Positions 1,081 to 26,686 of a stretch of 45,454 nt of DNA are shown here, in pieces. This DNA is from a virus, in the IMG/VR virus record IMGVR_UViG_3300008448_000164, positions 1 through 45,454 of that record; one strand, written 5' to 3'. Each line of letters starts with the position of its first letter. Position 1 is the stretch's first letter. A program made the position numbers and the translations under genes. The notes beneath the pieces were generated by a model. The model did no database searches and was not told the origin of the DNA. It worked only from the letters and a program-made list of their open reading frames with translations.

Positions 1081-1542
1081 ATGAATTTAGTAGAACCAGT
1101 TATGACAGTTGAAGATTTAATCAATGATGAAAATTTCGACTCAACCCAATATGAAGGATATATTTATATGACTACATTTTTAAATTTAAATCGTAGTTAT
1201 ATAGGTAAAAAGAATTTTTTCCACACTACTAATGTTAAATTAGGTAAAAAAGAATTAGCAGCATTGCCTGTTACTCGTGGTAAAAAGCCAAGTAAAAAAC
1301 AAGTAATAAAGGAAAGCGATTGGAAAACATATTATGGTTCATCAACTGAAGTTAAAGAGTTATTAAAAACAGAACCTAAAGATCGTATAATTAGAAGTGT
1401 TATACGTTTATGTAAATCAAAGAAAGAATTAACATATTTTGAATGTAAATATTTATTTCAATATGGTGTATTAGAAGATTCATCAAGATGGATTAATGAC
1501 AATATATTAGGTAAATTTTATTCAAAAGATATATATTTATAA
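1081..1542 (+). CDS. GIY-YIG-like endonuclease domain protein
   Basis: A 153-aa protein. Residues 25-45 carry a GYIYMTT...SYIGKK pattern that fits the paired GIY/YIG strands of the GIY-YIG nuclease superfamily. It is followed by WKTYYGSS and, near residue 120, YFECKYLF with a Glu in a helix, the usual position of the metal-binding Glu. The start is ATG 1081, two bases after the previous stop. GIY-YIG enzymes in T4-like phages include mobile homing enzymes (Seg) and repair-type nucleases. This gene sits in a normal operon position, so either a resident nuclease or a free-standing homing enzyme is possible. The family call is moderate; the substrate is unknown. Confidence 0.6.
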   Translation: MNLVEPVMTVEDLINDENFDSTQYEGYIYMTTFLNLNRSYIGKKNFFHTTNVKLGKKELAALPVTRGKKPSKKQVIKESDWKTYYGSSTEVKELLKTEPKDRIIRSVIRLCKSKKELTYFECKYLFQYGVLEDSSRWINDNILGKFYSKDIYL

Positions 1543-3911: not shown

Positions 3912-4736
3912 ATGATAAAATTATTAGAATTATTAAAAGAAATTTCCCAAAATAAAATGGTGGTCATGGCTGGTGGAGCAGGGGCAGGGAAATCATATCT
4001 ACTTAATAAAGTAAAATCAAAAGTTCCAGATATCAAAATTCTTAACCCAGATACATACATTGAAGACAAAAATAGTCCAATGTATAATAGCTTAACAAAA
4101 GCATCAGCTCAAATTGATGATGTTGATGTACCTGACGCTATAAGTAAAGGAGAATCATTTATTTGGGACACAACAGCATCAAACGCTGCTAAAATGTTAG
4201 GTGGAGAATATCGCCGTAAACAAGTTAAAGGTATATTAAATACTGAAGGCTATGATGAAATGATGGTAATGGTTTATACACATCCTATAGTGTCATTTTT
4301 ACGTAATTTTAAACGTGAACGTAAAGTACCTACAGTTGGAGTATTATCAACATGGAATAATGTTTATGGTAATATAGAAGCATATAAAAATAAGTTAGGT
4401 GATAATTTTATATTATATCAAGCGCCTGATAAAGAATTTCAAACACAAATTGATGATTTTAATAACGCTATCAAAAGTGGTAAATTAAAAGAATTTTTTG
4501 AAAGTTTATTATCATCAGGTGAATTTAAATCAACATTTAGAAAAGATAAACCTGAATTACAATCTCCAGAAGAAAAAGAAAAAGCTGAAAAAGCTAAAGC
4601 TCAATCAAAAGCATTATTAGATACTCAAATTGATAAACTTCAAAAAGAATTTAATAACATTGAAAGTAAAGTTAAAGGTTCTATCACTACTGATGAAAAT
4701 GAAGTAATAAGTAAAATAGTTAATTTCGTAAAATGA
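3912..4736 (+). CDS. P-loop kinase, AAA_33/zeta-toxin-like
   Basis: A 274-aa protein with a clear Walker A, GGAGAGKS, at residues 21-28. A zeta/AAA_33-like layout follows: NPDTYIED, then SFIWDTTASN and a central YRRKQVKG stretch. These proteins phosphorylate small molecules or nucleic-acid ends; the substrate cannot be read here. The N-terminus MIKLLELLKEIS also fits the [L/I]-x-E leader pattern seen in many neighbours. The C-terminal 60 residues are charged and probably coiled coil. I start it at ATG 3912 because the upstream in-frame ATG at 3876 falls inside a terminator hairpin. Its stop overlaps the next ATG (ATGA). Confidence 0.75.
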   Translation: MIKLLELLKEISQNKMVVMAGGAGAGKSYLLNKVKSKVPDIKILNPDTYIEDKNSPMYNSLTKASAQIDDVDVPDAISKGESFIWDTTASNAAKMLGGEYRRKQVKGILNTEGYDEMMVMVYTHPIVSFLRNFKRERKVPTVGVLSTWNNVYGNIEAYKNKLGDNFILYQAPDKEFQTQIDDFNNAIKSGKLKEFFESLLSSGEFKSTFRKDKPELQSPEEKEKAEKAKAQSKALLDTQIDKLQKEFNNIESKVKGSITTDENEVISKIVNFVK

Positions 4737-6190
4737 GTTTAGGTAAATATTTAGCTGAAATAATAATTGAACCTACTCCTAAAAAAGTAGCTTTATATCC
4801 AGGAGCATTCAAACCACCTCATAGAGGTCATTTTGAATTAGTACAACGCTTATCTAAAGTAGCGGATGAAGTACTAGTAATTATTTCACCTATTGCTCGT
4901 GAAGGTATAACAGCACAGCAGTCATTATCGGCTTGGAAATTATATTTACCTTTATTACCTAAAGCTAAATTAGTTATTTCAGATACATCATCACCAGTAT
5001 CATATGTTTATGATTATATAAAATCTAATCCACAACAAGATATAGTGGTTGCATTTGGTAAAGGTGAAGAAAAACGCTATAACGCGCTTTTAAACAAAGA
5101 AAAATATTCAAACGTTAAAATATATGACGCTGGTAATATAGGCGGTTTATCCGCATCTGACTTACGTAATTCTATTAAGTCTAATAATCCAACTGATATA
5201 GCTAAATTTTTACCTCAAGGTATTGAAGTAGCAGATTATATGAATGCTTTAGATTTAAGTTTAAGAACTGAACCTCCGTTTAATTCAATAACTGAAAATC
5301 AAGATTTAGATTTTTATGAAGCGTTATTATCTTTAACAAAATATTATATAAATAATGGATATAATGTTTATCCATTACCTAAAATAATTATTAATAATGA
5401 CACTAAAAATGCTGCTAAAGTATTAGGTAAAACAGCATATTATGACCCAGCAAATAAATCAATAACTTTATACATAACTGGGAGACATCCAAAAGATATA
5501 TTAAGATCATTTTCACATGAAATGATTCACCATATACAAAATTTAGAAAATAGATTAAATAATATTAATACTACTAATACTAATGAAGATGATTATTTAA
5601 GTAAACTTGAACAAGAAGCATACTTAAATGGTAATATGATTCTTAGAAATTGGGAAGATAGTATTAAAAATAATACAGTTATGAATGAACAAAAAGAAAA
5701 ATCAAAATACATAATATTCTGTGATATGGATGGAGTATTAGTAGATTTTGAAAAAGGTTATGAAGATTTAACAGGATTACATACCAAACATGTTGATGTA
5801 CAAGACAGTAATGAATTTTGGAATAAATTTAGATTATCACTTGAAGAAAAAGGTATGACTGAATATGATTATTGGGTAAATCTAGAATGGATGTCTGATG
5901 GTAAACAATTATGGGATTATATAAAACCATATAATCCATATGTATTAACTGCTCCATCTCGTGACCCAGGTTCAAAACAAGGTAAAAAACAATGGGTTGA
6001 ACAGTTGGATAATATGAAAAATATATATTTCCGCGCTGCTCAAAATAAACCTGATTTCTCAGGAAAAAATCGCATACTTATTGATGACCGAGCTGATACT
6101 ATTGAAAAATGGAACGCTAATGGTGGAATAGGTATATTACATACATCTACTGAAAATACAATTGAACAACTTAAAAAACTAGGATTATAA
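4733..6190 (+). CDS. Three-part fusion: nucleotidyltransferase + HExxH + HAD 5'-nucleotidase-like
   Basis: A 485-aa protein with three recognisable parts. Residues 17-170 are a cytidylyltransferase/NMNAT-like fold: PGAFKPPHRGH with H30xxH33, and GLSASDLR (138-145), the counterpart of the ISxTxxR motif. Residues 200-315 contain SHEMIHHIQN (His262, Glu263, His266) and a downstream EQEAYLNGN, which fits a gluzincin metal site. Residues 325-485 are a HAD domain: FCDMDGVLVDF (Asp331, Asp333), a Ser/Lys region around SRDPGSKQGKK, and LIDDRAD, resembling 5'(3')-deoxyribonucleotidases. There is no internal stop or frameshift. Nucleotide or NAD metabolism is inferred; the role of the middle part is unknown. 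Confidence 0.8.
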   Translation: MSLGKYLAEIIIEPTPKKVALYPGAFKPPHRGHFELVQRLSKVADEVLVIISPIAREGITAQQSLSAWKLYLPLLPKAKLVISDTSSPVSYVYDYIKSNPQQDIVVAFGKGEEKRYNALLNKEKYSNVKIYDAGNIGGLSASDLRNSIKSNNPTDIAKFLPQGIEVADYMNALDLSLRTEPPFNSITENQDLDFYEALLSLTKYYINNGYNVYPLPKIIINNDTKNAAKVLGKTAYYDPANKSITLYITGRHPKDILRSFSHEMIHHIQNLENRLNNINTTNTNEDDYLSKLEQEAYLNGNMILRNWEDSIKNNTVMNEQKEKSKYIIFCDMDGVLVDFEKGYEDLTGLHTKHVDVQDSNEFWNKFRLSLEEKGMTEYDYWVNLEWMSDGKQLWDYIKPYNPYVLTAPSRDPGSKQGKKQWVEQLDNMKNIYFRAAQNKPDFSGKNRILIDDRADTIEKWNANGGIGILHTSTENTIEQLKKLGL

Positions 6191-12128: not shown

Positions 12129-12479
12129 ATGAAACTATCAGAATTAAAAAATATTATTAGAGAAGAATATAATTCAGCTTCAAAATTATATGAAATTGAA
12201 GGTGTTATTGTTATTGACACTGACACAGCCTTTCATAAACAAATTATGTCTGATGTTCGTGCTGTTAAAGGAATAACAATTGTAAAGGATTATATTTATG
12301 AGCCTGTAGGTGCAGCCGCAAATAGAGGATACGCTGATTTAGTTATTAAAATAGATCCATCTCCATTTAAACAAATGAAAGTACAAGATATTGTTGACCA
12401 AGTAGTTAATGATATTAAAAGTGTTAAAGGAGTAAGAGCATTTAAAGTAAAAAAAGGACCATTTCAAGCTAATGTATAA
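12129..12479 (+). CDS. Small protein with CTS-like leader
   Basis: A 116-aa protein read from ATG 12129, one base after the previous stop. The in-frame ATG at 12096 lies inside the upstream gene and would destroy the leader. The N-terminus MKLSELKNIIREEYNSA repeats the leader type, with I-R-E at 10-12. The rest (IEGVIVIDTDTAFHKQIM, VRAVKGITIVKDYIYEP, VKGVRAFKVKKGPF) alternates strands and helices with a ferredoxin-like pattern. I cannot name a family. Its stop overlaps the next ATG (TAATG). Confidence 0.7.
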   Translation: MKLSELKNIIREEYNSASKLYEIEGVIVIDTDTAFHKQIMSDVRAVKGITIVKDYIYEPVGAAANRGYADLVIKIDPSPFKQMKVQDIVDQVVNDIKSVKGVRAFKVKKGPFQANV

Positions 12480-12871
12480 TGGATTTACGTAAACTAGTTA
12501 AAGAAATATTAGATGAACAAAAAACAAAACGTGACAGATGTTTACGTATTGCTGACCGTAAGTTTGATAAACCATCTGCTTATAAATCAGGTGCTGTAGT
12601 TAAATGCCGCCAAGGTAAGATTTGGAAAGATTTAAAAGAAGTAATTCAAGAAATAATATTAGAAGATGAATCTCTTCATAAATGGTTTAAACGTTCAGGC
12701 ACACCAGGTAAAGAAGGCGGATGGGTAGATTGTAATACTTGTAGAGATGGTAAATGTAAAGCATGTGGTAGAAAAAAAGGAGAAAAACGCTCTAAATATC
12801 CTTCATGTCGTCCAACACCAGCTCAATGTAAACAACCAGGTAAAGGTAAAAAATGGGGGAAAACAAAATGA
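12479..12871 (+). CDS. Cys-rich small protein with CTS-like leader
   Basis: A 130-aa basic protein. The leader MDLRKLVKEILDEQ offers L-D-E at 11-13. Next comes RDRCLRIADRKFDKPSAYKS, a PSAY-type motif common in phage and giant-virus proteins, then WFKRSGTPGKEGGWVDCNTC with CRDGKCKACGRKKGEKRSKY and SCRPTPAQCK. Pairs of Cys (CNTC, CKAC, SC, QC) strongly suggest structural zinc. The enzymatic role is unknown. The high Lys/Arg content fits nucleic-acid binding or packing with DNA in the capsid. Confidence 0.72.
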   Translation: MDLRKLVKEILDEQKTKRDRCLRIADRKFDKPSAYKSGAVVKCRQGKIWKDLKEVIQEIILEDESLHKWFKRSGTPGKEGGWVDCNTCRDGKCKACGRKKGEKRSKYPSCRPTPAQCKQPGKGKKWGKTK

Positions 12872-13508: not shown

Positions 13509-14894
13509 ATGAATAAGAAAATAGTAATAGTAGGTGCTGGTGTAGCAGGTATTAATGCTGCAACTAAATTAGTAGACAACGGATATCCGGGTGAATTAAT
13601 AACAATTATTGATAAAGGAAACGATCCATATAATCGTTTACCTGAAGAAGTAATGACAGGTATGTTAGGAGCAGGTGGATGGAGTGATGGTAAATTAACA
13701 TATCATACAGCAATTGGAGGTCAATTAGCAAAATATTGCGGTGAAGAAAAAGCAATGGAATTAATGAAACAAGTAGTAGATAATTTTACTCGTTTTCATC
13801 CTAAACCAGAAGAAATTTTTATGTCTGATCCACAAGAAGAACCTGAATTTATTAAACCATATTTTGGATTACGTATGTTTCCAGTATGGCATATTGGTTC
13901 AAATTATCTACATGAAATTGCTAAAACATGGTATCAATATTTAGTTGATAAAGGTGTTAAATTTGAGTGGAATGCTGAAGTAACAGAAATTAATTTTGAA
14001 GAAGATTATTTAATGTTTAAAGATACTAATAATTGGGTAGGTAAGAGATTTTATGATAAACTAATATTTGCAGTAGGTAAATCAGGTATTGATTTTGCTC
14101 AACAATTAGCAGATGATTATCAATTACCTAATGAACCTAAATCAGTTCAAATTGGAGTTCGTTTTGAAGCACCACAAAAATACTTCCAGAAATTAATTGA
14201 TATCAGTTATGATTTTAAACTATATCAGAAATTTGATAATGTATCGTTAAGATCATTTTGTACTAATAATAACGCGGCTTATGTAGCAGTAGAAGAAACG
14301 TATGGTGATATTACATATAATGGTCATGCTAAAAAAGGTGAAGAATTTAGAAACAATATGACTAACTTTGGTATCTTGATGGAAATTAAAGGTATTGAAA
14401 ATCCGTTTGAATGGTCAAGAGAAGTGGTTAAAAAGTGTCAAGTAAAAGAAATTCAATCATATAATATACAATCTTTCGATTTAACTCAAGAAGGAATAGC
14501 TAGTAGAGGAACAGGAAATGTGATACAAAAAGGTTTATATTATTCTCCTAAAGGAACTAGAAAACCATCTCAAACATCTGAAAATGATAATATAAAAGCT
14601 ACTCAAATTATAGATTTGTTTCCTATAAGATCAGCTATGGGAAAATATTTTAATTATATTGAAGATTTCATCAACCAAATGAACGAAGTATTTGAATTTG
14701 GTGATGATTGGGGTATGTATATTCCTGAAGTAAAATATCTATCACCTGAACCATTAGTAAATTATGACGATTTATCATTAACTGAATACCCAAATGTACA
14801 CTTTGTAGGTGATGCCTTAAGTGCTCGTGGAATTACAGTATCAGGAGCGCACGGAATATATGTTGCTGAATATTTATTATCAAATAGCAACTAA
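13509..14894 (+). CDS. FAD-dependent dehydrogenase (COG2509-like)
   Basis: A 461-aa flavoprotein. The N-terminal Rossmann motif is VIVGAGVAGINAA (Gly9, Gly11, Gly14), followed by an acidic strand end (IIDKG). GAGGWSDGKLT near residue 54 corresponds to the G-(G/A)-x-x-SDGKL motif of the COG2509 FAD-dependent dehydrogenases. The C-terminus carries HFVGDALSARGITVSGAHGI, the usual second FAD-contacting motif. It is full length. Substrate and redox partner are unknown. Such an enzyme is unusual in a T4-like phage and may be an auxiliary metabolic gene. Its TAA overlaps the next ATG, so it is coupled to the DUF6884-like gene. Confidence 0.85.
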   Translation: MNKKIVIVGAGVAGINAATKLVDNGYPGELITIIDKGNDPYNRLPEEVMTGMLGAGGWSDGKLTYHTAIGGQLAKYCGEEKAMELMKQVVDNFTRFHPKPEEIFMSDPQEEPEFIKPYFGLRMFPVWHIGSNYLHEIAKTWYQYLVDKGVKFEWNAEVTEINFEEDYLMFKDTNNWVGKRFYDKLIFAVGKSGIDFAQQLADDYQLPNEPKSVQIGVRFEAPQKYFQKLIDISYDFKLYQKFDNVSLRSFCTNNNAAYVAVEETYGDITYNGHAKKGEEFRNNMTNFGILMEIKGIENPFEWSREVVKKCQVKEIQSYNIQSFDLTQEGIASRGTGNVIQKGLYYSPKGTRKPSQTSENDNIKATQIIDLFPIRSAMGKYFNYIEDFINQMNEVFEFGDDWGMYIPEVKYLSPEPLVNYDDLSLTEYPNVHFVGDALSARGITVSGAHGIYVAEYLLSNSN

Positions 14895-15385
14895 TGGCAA
14901 AAATAGTATTATTAAGTTGTACTAAATCAAAATTAAGCAAACCAGCTCCGGCGCAGGAACTATACTCTGCCTCTCCAATGTTTCAAAAGACATTGGAGTA
15001 TGGCAAGGCGCTTAAACCTGATAAAATGTACATATTATCAGCAAAACATCATCTCGTACCTTTACAAAAAGAATTAGCTCCATATGATAAAACATTGAAA
15101 GAAATGCCAAAAGATGAAAAGGAAAAATGGGGTGAAGAAACAATAAAACAAATGAGATCAGCAGGTATTAATCCTGAAAAAGATCAATTTATATTTTTAA
15201 CTGGTTCAGAATATATGAAACCATTCTCAAAATATATTCCTGAAGATCATATTGAAAAACCAATGGAAGGTAAACGTTTTGGTGAACGTTTAAAATGGTT
15301 AAATAATCAAGTTAATAAAATTCAAGAAATAATTAATAAAATAAAAACAGTAATTTATGAAAATCTCAAAAGAGCAACTAAATGA
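14894..15385 (+). CDS. DUF6884-like protein
   Basis: A 163-aa protein. VLLSCTKSKLSKPAPAQELY at the N-terminus, then a Pro-Ser-x-x-F-like SPMFQKTLEYGKAL, then YILSAKHHLVPL (about residues 46-57) and APYDKTL match the DUF6884 pattern (SCgKxK, ilSAkHGLv, PYDxtL), related to the YaaA-like fold. I recall such proteins near modified-base and glycosylase genes, but the biochemical activity is not known to me. It is coupled to the FAD dehydrogenase (TAATG) and overlaps the next small gene by 29 bases. Confidence 0.68.
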   Translation: MAKIVLLSCTKSKLSKPAPAQELYSASPMFQKTLEYGKALKPDKMYILSAKHHLVPLQKELAPYDKTLKEMPKDEKEKWGEETIKQMRSAGINPEKDQFIFLTGSEYMKPFSKYIPEDHIEKPMEGKRFGERLKWLNNQVNKIQEIINKIKTVIYENLKRATK

Positions 15386-20929: not shown

Positions 20930-21784
20930 ATGTTAGTAAAACATAATAAATTTAAAAACTCCGGCTTAATATTTGAACTGTTAGTTAGACAAATCACAGC
21001 AGATACATTATCAGGCAAAGAGTCACCATCAATTGATATTTTAAAAAAATATTTTGTTAAAACAGAATTAAGTAAAGAATATAAATTGTATGATACTGTA
21101 CTAAAACAATCTCAAATTACAGAAGCTAAAGCTAATATTGTTATTGAAGAAGTATTAAAAGCATCTCGTAAATTAAATAGAACTACTTTACGTAAAGAAA
21201 AATACAATTTAATTAGTGAAATTAAATCTCACTATAATTTAGATGAGTTTTTTAAAACTAAACTTCCAAATTATAAATCTCAAGCTGCATTATATACATT
21301 AATTGAAATATATAATAATCAAGAGTTAACAGACCCTAATCAAATTATTTCTAATAAAATGACTTTGTTAGAAAATTTAACTGCTCAACCAGTTAAAGAA
21401 AAAGAAGTTAGAGATAATATTATTGAAGAGTTTAAAAAATATGATAAAGATTTACGTTTATTAACATATCAAGTTTTACTAGAAAAATTTAATGGTAAAT
21501 ATAATTCTTTAAATGATAATCAAAAGGTAATATTAAGAGAGTTCATTAACTTAGTAGATAATACTCCACGTTTAAGAGAATTTTATAATACTAAAATTAA
21601 TGAGATTAAAACTCAATTAACTAAATTAAATAAATCAGTTACTGATAAAGTAACTCAAATTAAATTAAATGAAGTTATATCATTAATTACAGAAATTGAT
21701 AAAACCTCAAAAATATCAAATGATGATTTAGTAAATTTATTACAATACTATTCATTAGTTGATGAATTAAAATTAGTAAAATGA
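20930..21784 (+). CDS. Conserved head-module protein of unknown function
   Basis: A 284-aa, Lys-rich all-helical protein. The N-terminus contains NKFKNSGLIFELLVRQITAD, a signature I associate with a conserved protein found between portal and protease in marine T4-like phages. There are no Cys, no catalytic motif and no membrane segment. The helical-repeat look suggests a scaffold- or core-associated role. Its stop overlaps the next ATG (ATGA at 21781), linking it to the small core protein. Confidence 0.75.
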   Translation: MLVKHNKFKNSGLIFELLVRQITADTLSGKESPSIDILKKYFVKTELSKEYKLYDTVLKQSQITEAKANIVIEEVLKASRKLNRTTLRKEKYNLISEIKSHYNLDEFFKTKLPNYKSQAALYTLIEIYNNQELTDPNQIISNKMTLLENLTAQPVKEKEVRDNIIEEFKKYDKDLRLLTYQVLLEKFNGKYNSLNDNQKVILREFINLVDNTPRLREFYNTKINEIKTQLTKLNKSVTDKVTQIKLNEVISLITEIDKTSKISNDDLVNLLQYYSLVDELKLVK

Positions 21785-22104
21785 CCCCAGATAAATTAAA
21801 AGAATTAGTTAAGAAAACCCTACAAGAAATGTCTATGACTGGTGGTGGTACTGCTGGAGGAGCATTTAGTGCTGGTGTTGGTATGAATTATGCTACACCT
21901 AAAGCATTTAAAAAAGTAAAAAATATAGACGAAACAGCATATGGTACTGGTAATTTAGGTCCTGGTCCAAAAGCTGGAAAAGATGGGGTTAAAGATAATT
22001 ATTATGTGAAAGCATTTGGATTTAAACCTGTTAATCGTAAACAACAAGCAAAATCATCTAAAGCTATAGATTATAAAGATCTATGGGGTAAAACATATAA
22101 ATAA
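21781..22104 (+). CDS. Small prohead core protein sharing a motif with the major capsid protein
   Basis: A 107-aa protein. The leader MTPDKLKELVKKTLQE ends in L-Q-E at 14-16, an ideal prohead-protease site. Directly after it comes MSMTGGGTAGGAFSAGVG, which strongly resembles SQTGAGTAGAAFTAGVG just after the likely cleavage site of the major capsid protein in this window. The rest is basic and Gly/Lys-rich (GPGPKAGKDGV, FKPVNRKQQAKSS). In position it parallels T4 gp67/gp68, between portal and protease. It is likely a processed core or capsid-lining protein. Confidence 0.78.
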   Translation: MTPDKLKELVKKTLQEMSMTGGGTAGGAFSAGVGMNYATPKAFKKVKNIDETAYGTGNLGPGPKAGKDGVKDNYYVKAFGFKPVNRKQQAKSSKAIDYKDLWGKTYK

Positions 22105-23187: not shown

Positions 23188-23802
23188 ATGAGACAACCGT
23201 TAATAGAAACAATACCATTTATAATATCTCGCCAACAATTAATGGAAGGCGTACGAACAGCAGCTGGTAATCCAATTGTTGAAGGCGTATTAGCTACAGC
23301 TGAGGTAAAAAATGGTAATGGTCGCTACTATAAAAAAGATCTTTGGGAACGTGAAATAGACAAATATATGTCTTGCGTTAGAGAAAATAGAGCGTTAGGT
23401 GAATTAGATCACCCTGAATCTTCTATTATTAACTTAAAAAATGTATCTCATAATATAATAGATATTTGGTGGAATGGAGATAAAGTAATGGGTAAACTAG
23501 AAATATTACCTACTCCATCTGGAAATATTGTTAAAGCACTTATTGAAAATAACATTACTATAGGTGTATCTTCACGTGGTATGGGTAGCTTAAAACCACT
23601 TGGTGAAACAATGGAAGTACAAGATGATTTTGAACTATTATGTTGGGACTTTGTATCAACACCTTCAAATCCAGGATCATGGATGCAAGTAACTAAAAGT
23701 GGTTTAAATGAAGGTTTAACTCACAATACTAACCCGTATGCTAAAGTAAATTCAGTAATAACAGAAATACTTTGTGCTAATGGAACTTGTCCAATATTTT
23801 AA
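23188..23802 (+). CDS. Prohead core serine protease, T4 gp21-like
   Basis: A 204-aa protease that digests the scaffold and trims capsid and internal proteins after [L/I]-x-E. NGNGRYYKKDLWEREIDKY and GELDHPESS (His75) are followed by IGVSSRGMGSL (Ser128 and Ser129), the His and Ser sites of the gp21 family. Its own N-terminus contains L-I-E and QQLMEGV, possible self-cleavage points. It starts one base after the previous stop and precedes the scaffold and capsid genes, the T4 order. Confidence 0.92.
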   Translation: MRQPLIETIPFIISRQQLMEGVRTAAGNPIVEGVLATAEVKNGNGRYYKKDLWEREIDKYMSCVRENRALGELDHPESSIINLKNVSHNIIDIWWNGDKVMGKLEILPTPSGNIVKALIENNITIGVSSRGMGSLKPLGETMEVQDDFELLCWDFVSTPSNPGSWMQVTKSGLNEGLTHNTNPYAKVNSVITEILCANGTCPIF

Positions 23803-25012: not shown

Positions 25013-26686
25013 ATGAACTCAATTCAATCATTATTAGAAGGCGCTAACCCATGGAAAGCTCTTCAAAGTGACGCAACTCGTTTAGCTGCGAAATGGGGTA
25101 AGACAGGTTTGTTAGAAGGTTTAAAATCAGAAACCGATAAAAACAACATGTCTATGATCCTTGAAAATCAGGCAAAACAATTAGTAATGGAAACTTCACA
25201 AACTGGTGCTGGTACTGCAGGTGCTGCTTTTACCGCTGGTGTTGGTGAACAATGGGCTGGTGTAGCTCTTCCATTAGTACGTAAAGTATTTGGTCAAATC
25301 GCTGCTAAAGAATTCGTTAGCGTTCAACCAATGAATTTACCTTCAGGTCTAGTATTTTTCTTAGACTTCCAGTATGGTACAACTAAATCTCCATTCACTG
25401 CTGCTGCTGGTGCTGGTTTCTATGGTACTGAATCAGTATACGGTGTAACTAACCCAGGAGCTACTGCTTCTGCAAACGGTGGTTTATATGGTGCTGGTCG
25501 TTTCAGTTATTCTATCAACAACACATCATCATTTAGTTCAGCTACTGTAGCTTCTGCTTCATGGTCTGATTTTAATTTTGATTCTAACTACTCAGCTTCT
25601 TCAGTTTCTCCAGCTGGTGGCCAATGGAAAAAAGTAACTATTACTTTACCTGCAAACACAGATTTTAATGGTGTACGTGCTTTCACTATCGCTTCACAAT
25701 CAGGTTTCCAACCAAGTGATATTCAAGCTGCTTACACTACTACAGCCGGTACTGTATTTAGTGGTACAACTGGAACAGTAACTTTCTTAGTAACTGGTTC
25801 TAAAGTAGGTGATGTTGCTACTGTAGCTAACGTAACTGCTTCATTCCAATTACAACCAACTGATCAATTACGTGGTGATTTCGAAGATGGTAATACTAGC
25901 TTAAATGCTAATAACAACCCAATCTCAATTCCTGAAATCAACGTTAAAATGAAATCAGAGCCAATCGTAGCTAAAACTCGTAAGTTAAGAGCTGTTTGGA
26001 CACCTGAATTCGCTCAAGATTTAAATGCTTACCATGCATTAGACGCAGAAGCTGAATTAACTAGTATCATGAGTGAGTACATCTCATTAGAGGTTGACTT
26101 AGAAATCTTAGATATGTTAATCCAAAACGCTTCAGCTGGTACTGAATATTGGTCAGCAATTAATAATATTGCTTTCACAAGTGCAACAGGTAACGGTACA
26201 ACAACTAACTTAGGTTTCTATAACACTCAAGGTGGTTGGTTCCAAACTTTAGGAACTAAAATGCAGAAATTAAGTAACATCATTCACCAGAAAACATTAC
26301 GTGGTGGTGCTAACTTCTTAGTATGTTCTCCTACAGTAGCTACTGTTCTTGAATCAATCCCAGGATTTGCTACTAACGCTAAAGGTGATGCTGCTCAAAT
26401 GACTTACGCTTTTGGTGTACAGAAAGTTGGTAACTTAAACAATCAGTATGATGTTTATAAGAACCCATACATGACTGAAAATACCATCTTAATGGGTTTC
26501 AAAGGTAAACAATTCTTAGAAACTGGTGCTGTTTTTGCTCCTTACATTCCATTAATCATGACTCCACTTGTATACGATCCAGATACTTTCACTCCACGTA
26601 AAGGTCTATTAACTCGTTATGCTAAGAAAATGGTTCGTCCTGAATTCTATGGTAAAATCTTAGTAAGTGGTTTAAATACCCTTTAA
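25013..26686 (+). CDS. Major capsid protein, T4 gp23-like
   Basis: A 557-aa HK97-fold capsid protein. The N-terminal propeptide (about 1-63) contains SLLEG, GLLEG and MILEN sites and ends near QLVMETSQ, where mature protein would begin with a Gly/Ala-rich SQTGAGTAGAAFTAGVG. Then come LPLVRKVFGQIAAKEFVSVQ and PMNLPSGLVFFLDF, close to the gp23 family (VQPMxxPxGxxFxxxxxY). The C-terminal RGGANFLVCSPTVATVLESI and YAPYIPL-like region are also typical. A terminator follows. Codon choice uses more C-ending codons than neighbouring genes, which suggests high expression. Confidence 0.95.
   Translation: MNSIQSLLEGANPWKALQSDATRLAAKWGKTGLLEGLKSETDKNNMSMILENQAKQLVMETSQTGAGTAGAAFTAGVGEQWAGVALPLVRKVFGQIAAKEFVSVQPMNLPSGLVFFLDFQYGTTKSPFTAAAGAGFYGTESVYGVTNPGATASANGGLYGAGRFSYSINNTSSFSSATVASASWSDFNFDSNYSASSVSPAGGQWKKVTITLPANTDFNGVRAFTIASQSGFQPSDIQAAYTTTAGTVFSGTTGTVTFLVTGSKVGDVATVANVTASFQLQPTDQLRGDFEDGNTSLNANNNPISIPEINVKMKSEPIVAKTRKLRAVWTPEFAQDLNAYHALDAEAELTSIMSEYISLEVDLEILDMLIQNASAGTEYWSAINNIAFTSATGNGTTTNLGFYNTQGGWFQTLGTKMQKLSNIIHQKTLRGGANFLVCSPTVATVLESIPGFATNAKGDAAQMTYAFGVQKVGNLNNQYDVYKNPYMTENTILMGFKGKQFLETGAVFAPYIPLIMTPLVYDPDTFTPRKGLLTRYAKKMVRPEFYGKILVSGLNTL

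Follow-up and report, generated by a model that had tools for sequence, protein, structure and literature searches.

A probable head-packaged modular polyprotein combining a nucleotidyltransferase, a zincin and a HAD nucleotidase in a T4-like phage of marine Bacteroidota

A 485-aa protein of a T4-like phage is constructed of a HIGH-superfamily nucleotidyltransferase (NT), a small zincin and a HAD-superfamily nucleotidase, and on the evidence of sequence it is probably a compact member of a modular family of head-packaged polyproteins that occurs in T4-like phages of marine Bacteroidota. The modules of this family are shuffled among related loci, and a short [LIV]xE motif stands at the joints between them and at the ends of the N-terminal leaders. 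According to the proposed mechanism, the leader MSLGKYLAE would send the whole chain into the prohead in the fashion of a T4 capsid-targeting sequence, where the gp21-type serine protease of the phage, to judge from motif and position, would cut after E9, E188 and E319 and thereby free the nucleotidyltransferase, the small zincin protease and the HAD nucleotidase inside the head. Once freed, the enzymes would pass into the host together with the DNA and would be active during the first minutes of infection, the NT domain perhaps by adenylylation or cytidylylation of a small molecule, the HAD domain perhaps by dephosphorylation of deoxynucleotides, and the zincin perhaps by cutting a host protein.

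The locus and its three domains

The window, which denotes the whole stretch of DNA analysed (45,454 nucleotides), covers 45 kb from the genome of a contractile T4-like phage and harbors genes for a terminase, a gp20-type portal, a gp21-type protease, a gp23-type capsid protein and a tail sheath. Judged by the NT-zincin-HAD locus, the closest isolated relative is Flavobacterium phage immuto (NC_055915). An FAD/NAD(P)-dependent oxidoreductase-like protein (13509-14894) and a DUF6884 protein (14894-15385), both devoid of the leader motif, are located after the cargo genes and before the terminase. The features under discussion are as follows, a slash marking each predicted cleavage point here and below.

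3912-4736, plus strand: P-loop kinase of the zeta-toxin class, just upstream of the NT ORF; its leader MIKLLELLKE ends in L-x-E
4733-6190, plus strand: whole ORF of 485 aa, in the order leader, NT, site, zincin, site, HAD
4733-4759, plus strand: leader MSLGKYLAE (aa 1-9), a short helix ending in L-x-E that resembles a T4 capsid-targeting propeptide (AlphaFold2 (AF2) helix 4-11, low pLDDT)
4760-5257, plus strand: HIGH-superfamily NT domain (aa 10-175), with HRGH at 4820-4831 and SASDLR at 5150-5167
5258-5296, plus strand: linker (aa 176-188) ending I-T-E188, a predicted prohead-protease site (SITE188/N; pLDDT <50 at 178-190)
5297-5668, plus strand: small gluzincin-like zincin (aa 189-312), with HExxH at 5516-5530, E293 at 5609-5611 and E295 at 5615-5617
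5669-5689, plus strand: linker (aa 313-319) ending M-N-E319, a predicted protease site (VMNE319/Q; pLDDT <50 at 315-323)
5690-6187, plus strand: HAD-superfamily domain resembling 5'(3')-deoxyribonucleotidases (aa 320-485)
23188-23802, plus strand: prohead core serine protease (Peptidase_S77, T4 gp21 family; E 2.5e-28, above cut-off), the proposed cutter
25013-26686, plus strand: major capsid protein of gp23 type, with a predicted propeptide end of the same motif class (LVME60/TSQTG)

The ORF is one uninterrupted frame with an ATG start, and its translation bore out the three-part frame and the motifs that the earlier note had described from the letters alone. It carries HRGH (aa 30-33), SASDLR (140-145), SHEMIHHIQN with the HExxH at 262-266, EQEAYL (E293, E295), DMDGVLVDF (D331, D333), LTAPS (405-409) and LIDDR (D451, D452). 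An assembly artefact as the source of the fusion was ruled out by independent contigs, one of which (L008) carries the ORF at 100% identity, while further contigs hold the same full-length fusion at 88, 80, 78 and 77% identity.

HMM profiles, Foldseek and the invariant HExxH and glutamate confirmed the three domain identities, including that of the gluzincin-like centre. The HxGH signature, the C-terminal S-x-S-x-x-R motif and the fold of HIGH nucleotidyltransferases are all found in aa 10-175, which score 20.9 bits against Pfam CTP_transf_like, just below the curated cut-off of 21, and give a mixture of NadM, NadD and PPAT matches in Foldseek with E values as low as 2e-6. By itself this domain might act on NMN, NaMN or another substrate. 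It shares the HIGH NT fold with the bifunctional NMN adenylyltransferases NadM and NadR (Foldseek 2qjo); unlike them, the phage protein has neither a Nudix nor a fused kinase domain, and the adjoining kinase is of the zeta-toxin class, its gene standing just upstream of the NT ORF in 74/74 loci. The HAD end matches PHROG 2643 (5'-3' deoxyribonucleotidase) at E=3e-27 and possesses the HAD motifs, with a score of 17 bits against Pfam NT5C that falls short of the curated cut-off of 24.8.

The central domain proved to be the best-conserved part among the relatives (about 50-60% identity, where many NT domains reach only about 30% and many HAD domains 35-45%), which disposes of the concern that it might be a mere linker. 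Its HExxH and both glutamates (E293, E295) are invariant across 66-70 relatives; since HEMIHHIQ was among the six search patterns, the conservation of HExxH is partly selected, and 9 of the 70 alignment rows lie outside that pattern, all nine of which keep HExxH. Synechococcus phage B23 gp332, which was found without patterns, has HELVH. When the domain was modelled alone (pLDDT 92, pTM 0.87), the HExxH and the glutamates were placed in two successive helices, as expected of a gluzincin, so that in the predicted zincin-type fold the HExxH helix faces the glutamate helix and is not a lone surface helix; from the model, the third metal ligand would be E293 or E295. The closest solved folds are the small zincin selecase 4qhi (Foldseek prob 0.97, E 0.05) and IrrE. 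The phage zincin is like selecase/jannalysin and IrrE in its predicted small HExxH fold, these being its top solved-structure matches, and unlike them in that the match is weak (E 0.05-0.4) and unaccompanied by any match of the zincin profile to PDB sequences. No curated family was matched above its cut-off, and members match DUF6782, M91, MPTase-PolyVal and M76 only weakly, so that by sequence the zincin constitutes a family of its own. No relatives were found on plasmids, and the six detected in genome contigs, every one in MAG contigs, are probably phage-derived.

The [LIV]xE motif at leaders and joints

The T4 protease gp21 cleaves behind the motif L/I-x-E, and the N-terminal ten residues of IPIII suffice to direct a protein to the head (PMC9026906). 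The window protein shows two traits of such a substrate, namely a leader ending in KYLAE9 and an S77 protease gene in the same phage, and the capsid propeptides end comparably in the window (LVME/TSQTG, a predicted end), in T4 gp23 (FLTE65/A) and in immuto (IVSE/A).

Of the 54 distinct starts among the NT proteins, 49 have additional residues N-terminal to the first strand, and [LIV]xE is present in 47 of those 49, compared with 27 +/- 3.2 after shuffling (maximum 38 in 2000); the remaining 5/54 starts (MGRV...) are without a leader. The kinase leaders gave the same picture, the motif being present in all 57 distinct forms versus 26 after shuffling (maximum 39). Stand-alone HAD genes mostly begin with a leader (MPNLLDLYE/A), which is absent from the fused HADs and also from the stand-alone HADs of L052, L065 and L069. 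The outcome for stand-alone ORFs that share an inserted module was mixed, with the leader motif in only 10/14. The stand-alone zincin homologue of Synechococcus phage B23 begins MNYKQFLRE/S, a T4-like leader.

In immuto, the head-proximal block from the tail-spike end to the capsid gene carries the motif at aa 4-24 in 24/30 proteins, versus 3/22 tail and 30/104 other genes (p 1e-6 to 3e-6); the borders of the block were set after the data had been viewed, and the count without exclusions still holds. Applied to T4 as a control, the N-terminal test was positive for 7/7 known gp21 substrates and also for 9/20 other proteins of the stretch read, and is therefore not specific when taken alone. Many small proteins of unknown function lie near the head genes of the window (at 1561, 7605, 8577, 11069, 12096, 12479 and 16181), among which the leader types xQFxRMxxLAGxITE and LRxIIxEx recur; these small leader-bearing proteins are likely to be further packaged proteins. 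The small head-region protein at 21781-22104 (LQE/MSMTGGGTAGGAFSAGVG) and the major capsid protein at 25013-26686 (VME/TSQTGAGTAGAAFTAGVG) have a predicted mature start in common.

The same motif recurs inside the chains. Both predicted internal sites of the window protein fall in its two lowest-confidence AF2 linkers, 178-190 and 315-323, the sole two segments with pLDDT <50; the third site of the protein is M-x-E and not L/I-x-E. Across the comparison set of 78 related phage loci, 77/78 proteins have [LIV]-x-E at a distance of 58-82 aa ahead of the HExxH, the single exception being L024, and in the zincin alignment position -2 is L/I/V in 70/70 and position 0 is E in 68/70. When the proteins were aligned on the joint E, 34 unrelated upstream classes showed background pairwise identity (about 7%) up to position -3, and the identity climbed to 26-40% directly after the E, at the start of the zincin.

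Modules that were located without using the E agree with this. The second HExxH module, beginning GRYD, is immediately preceded by E in 18/18 cases, with L/I/V/M at P3 in all, and two types of basic module start directly after [LIVM]xE in 6/6 and 3/3 cases. Zinc ribbons have the motif just upstream in 25/25, and fused HADs have [LIVM]xE within 24 aa upstream in 35/39 relatives versus 30% expected. The motif is short, and about 28-30% of 24-aa stretches taken anywhere in proteins of the NT-zincin-HAD family contain one. An unsupervised homology-breakpoint test revealed [LIV]xE at 43% of breakpoints versus 28% of random positions (z 7.2), with no comparable enrichment for the control motifs [LIV]xD/K/N/Q/S, ExL and LxxE/LxxxE (z -3.9 to 1.9). 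Elsewhere in the window, a DUF5872 protein (12479-12871) has an internal LEDE/S joint between two basic modules and is perhaps, by its sequence, a second small polyprotein.

Taken together, the joints, the leaders, the S77 gene, the capsid motif and the B23 leader make cleavage of a packaged chain at its joints the simplest account. The chain might instead be cut by its own zincin, which would release the adjoining modules either inside the head or once they have been injected; the zincin is indeed the best-conserved and most constant module, it is placed between the others, and autoprocessing by zincins has been proposed in the available passages of the polyvalent-protein study (PMC5512222). 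Against this stand the joint motif, which is that of the S77 prohead protease, and the recurrence of the same motif at the ends of the leaders of separate, zincin-less genes and of the capsid propeptide. The motif thus favours the prohead protease over self-processing by the embedded zincin, which may act on host proteins, and self-cutting is accordingly considered unlikely. It is highly unlikely that the motifs are leftovers without present use from leader-bearing packaged genes that became fused by stop-codon loss. Such a history would fit the HADs, which many relatives encode separately, with a leader of their own, and others in fused form without that leader, but the joints in 34 unrelated contexts keep the tripeptide alone and not the amphipathic leader, and a useless relic would decay, yet 77/78 retain it.

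Module exchange among relatives

The order NT-zincin-HAD is kept across the 78 loci, including all fused relatives, although the HAD frequently has a gene of its own. NT and zincin are separated by anything from 0 to several hundred aa (L030 having about 800), and up to about 800 aa lie between zincin and HAD. Inserted modules recur in varied order and comprise a zinc ribbon, the two basic modules, a KDPFGLN module and the second HExxH module (GRYD). The latter, a zincin-like module with HELEHLTQ and a conserved C-terminal end LNLWRxRxKxLSLPLFE, recurs in L077:4366-8304 and L069:3071-6832 and is sometimes present twice per chain. One insertion, seen once among the related loci, is carried by L069:3071-6832, a 1253-aa phage ORF that combines NT and zincin with a complete Fe/Mn superoxide dismutase, which is followed by a plastocyanin/azurin-like domain, and with the second HExxH module.

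Phage immuto has the same NT-zincin chain (gp088), an adjacent HAD gene (gp087) and a shared surrounding gene order; it differs from the window in its separate HAD and in a further ~290 aa ahead of the NT domain. These two proteins are annotated only as NMN adenylyltransferase and deoxyribonucleotidase. Inspection by eye of residues 1-294 of gp088 (L001:3119-5842), before the NT domain, disclosed a GSxKxGSKADFGDLD motif that is Pol-beta-type-NT-like, with a similar region in the adjoining gp089.

These comparisons bear on the proposal that a synthetase and a phosphatase in one chain control a nucleotide or NAD pool, which the earlier note had put forward. In that case the protein would be a genuine three-part cytoplasmic enzyme, its NT and HAD acting on linked nucleotide or NAD substrates and its centre being regulatory. 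The fixed order in all fused relatives and the resemblance of the NT to NadM/NadD and of the HAD to deoxyribonucleotidases speak for it. Contrary to this, AF2 of the whole protein gave three independently packed domains with no interdomain packing (pTM 0.40), large unrelated insertions and frequent splitting separate the domains in relatives, and protease-type motifs mark the joints. The neighbourhood lends no NAD-pathway support either, because the 'NAD synthetase' label on the family of window 1081-1542 (PHROG 447, immuto gp100) belongs to a SegE-like GIY-YIG endonuclease (SegE_GIY-YIG Pfam, E=1.9e-24) and is, from its sequence, a propagated misannotation; no NAD-pathway gene was recognised among the window ORFs scanned. 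Control of the NAD pool was consequently dropped as the main reading, and the three-part enzyme appears barely credible. Of the suggestion that the three-part order is unusual, the order itself stood, and the single enzyme gave way to shuffled modules.

Since relatives gain and lose modules at the same type of joint, the locus probably serves as a cassette slot for injected cargo. There is a somewhat better than even prospect that it represents a cassette-type polyprotein locus of T4-like phages of marine Bacteroidota, in which interchangeable modules, each joint bearing a site, share one packaging signal, are cut in the head and are co-delivered; on that reading, which merits the same measured confidence, the modules would include the nucleotidyltransferase, zincins, the HAD nucleotidase, the superoxide dismutase, the plastocyanin-like domain and the basic modules.

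Known systems and significance

A close precedent is provided by IPI-III, Alt and other gp21 substrates of T4, which likewise have a short N-terminal propeptide ending in L/I-x-E, a phage S77 protease and genes near the head genes, and whose cargo has been proposed to enter the host (PMC9026906). In contrast to the T4 cargo, which is carried one per chain, the window protein comprises several enzymes with a predicted site per joint. Many head proteins of phiKZ and SPN3US are similarly cut after glutamate by a gp21-type protease and include ejected cargo; their motif is different (S/A-x-E), and no enzyme strings with a site at each joint are described in PMC9026906.

Polyvalent proteins (Iyer et al. 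2017, PMC5512222) are, in the available passages of that study, phage chains with disparate enzymatic domains, including a zincin, that are predicted to be injected, and their processing is proposed to occur via the embedded metallopeptidase or a C-terminal assemblin-like peptidase domain. The 485-aa protein likewise unites several domains with disparate activities in a single chain, while its zincin, at 14.9 bits against MPTase-PolyVal (cut-off 27.5), lies outside that family. It is unlike the polyvalent proteins in its prohead-protease joint motifs, which the same passages do not describe. The open literature searched yielded neither a description of a phage polyprotein with a prohead-protease site per joint, which is weak evidence of novelty, nor virion proteomics of immuto, a gap that is likewise weak evidence.

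If the packaged-polyprotein reading is true, it would account for the presence of superoxide dismutase and plastocyanin within the gene of a nucleotidyltransferase, and it would correct labels such as 'NMN adenylyltransferase' on ~900-aa proteins. It would also allow packaged, injected phage proteins of unknown function to be predicted by a simple rule, the occurrence of [LIVM]xE at joints and in leaders. Moreover, it would mean that a polyprotein strategy exists in tailed phages, by which many cargo enzymes travel behind a single packaging signal, and the cassette locus would be the phage counterpart of the polyproteins of animal viruses.
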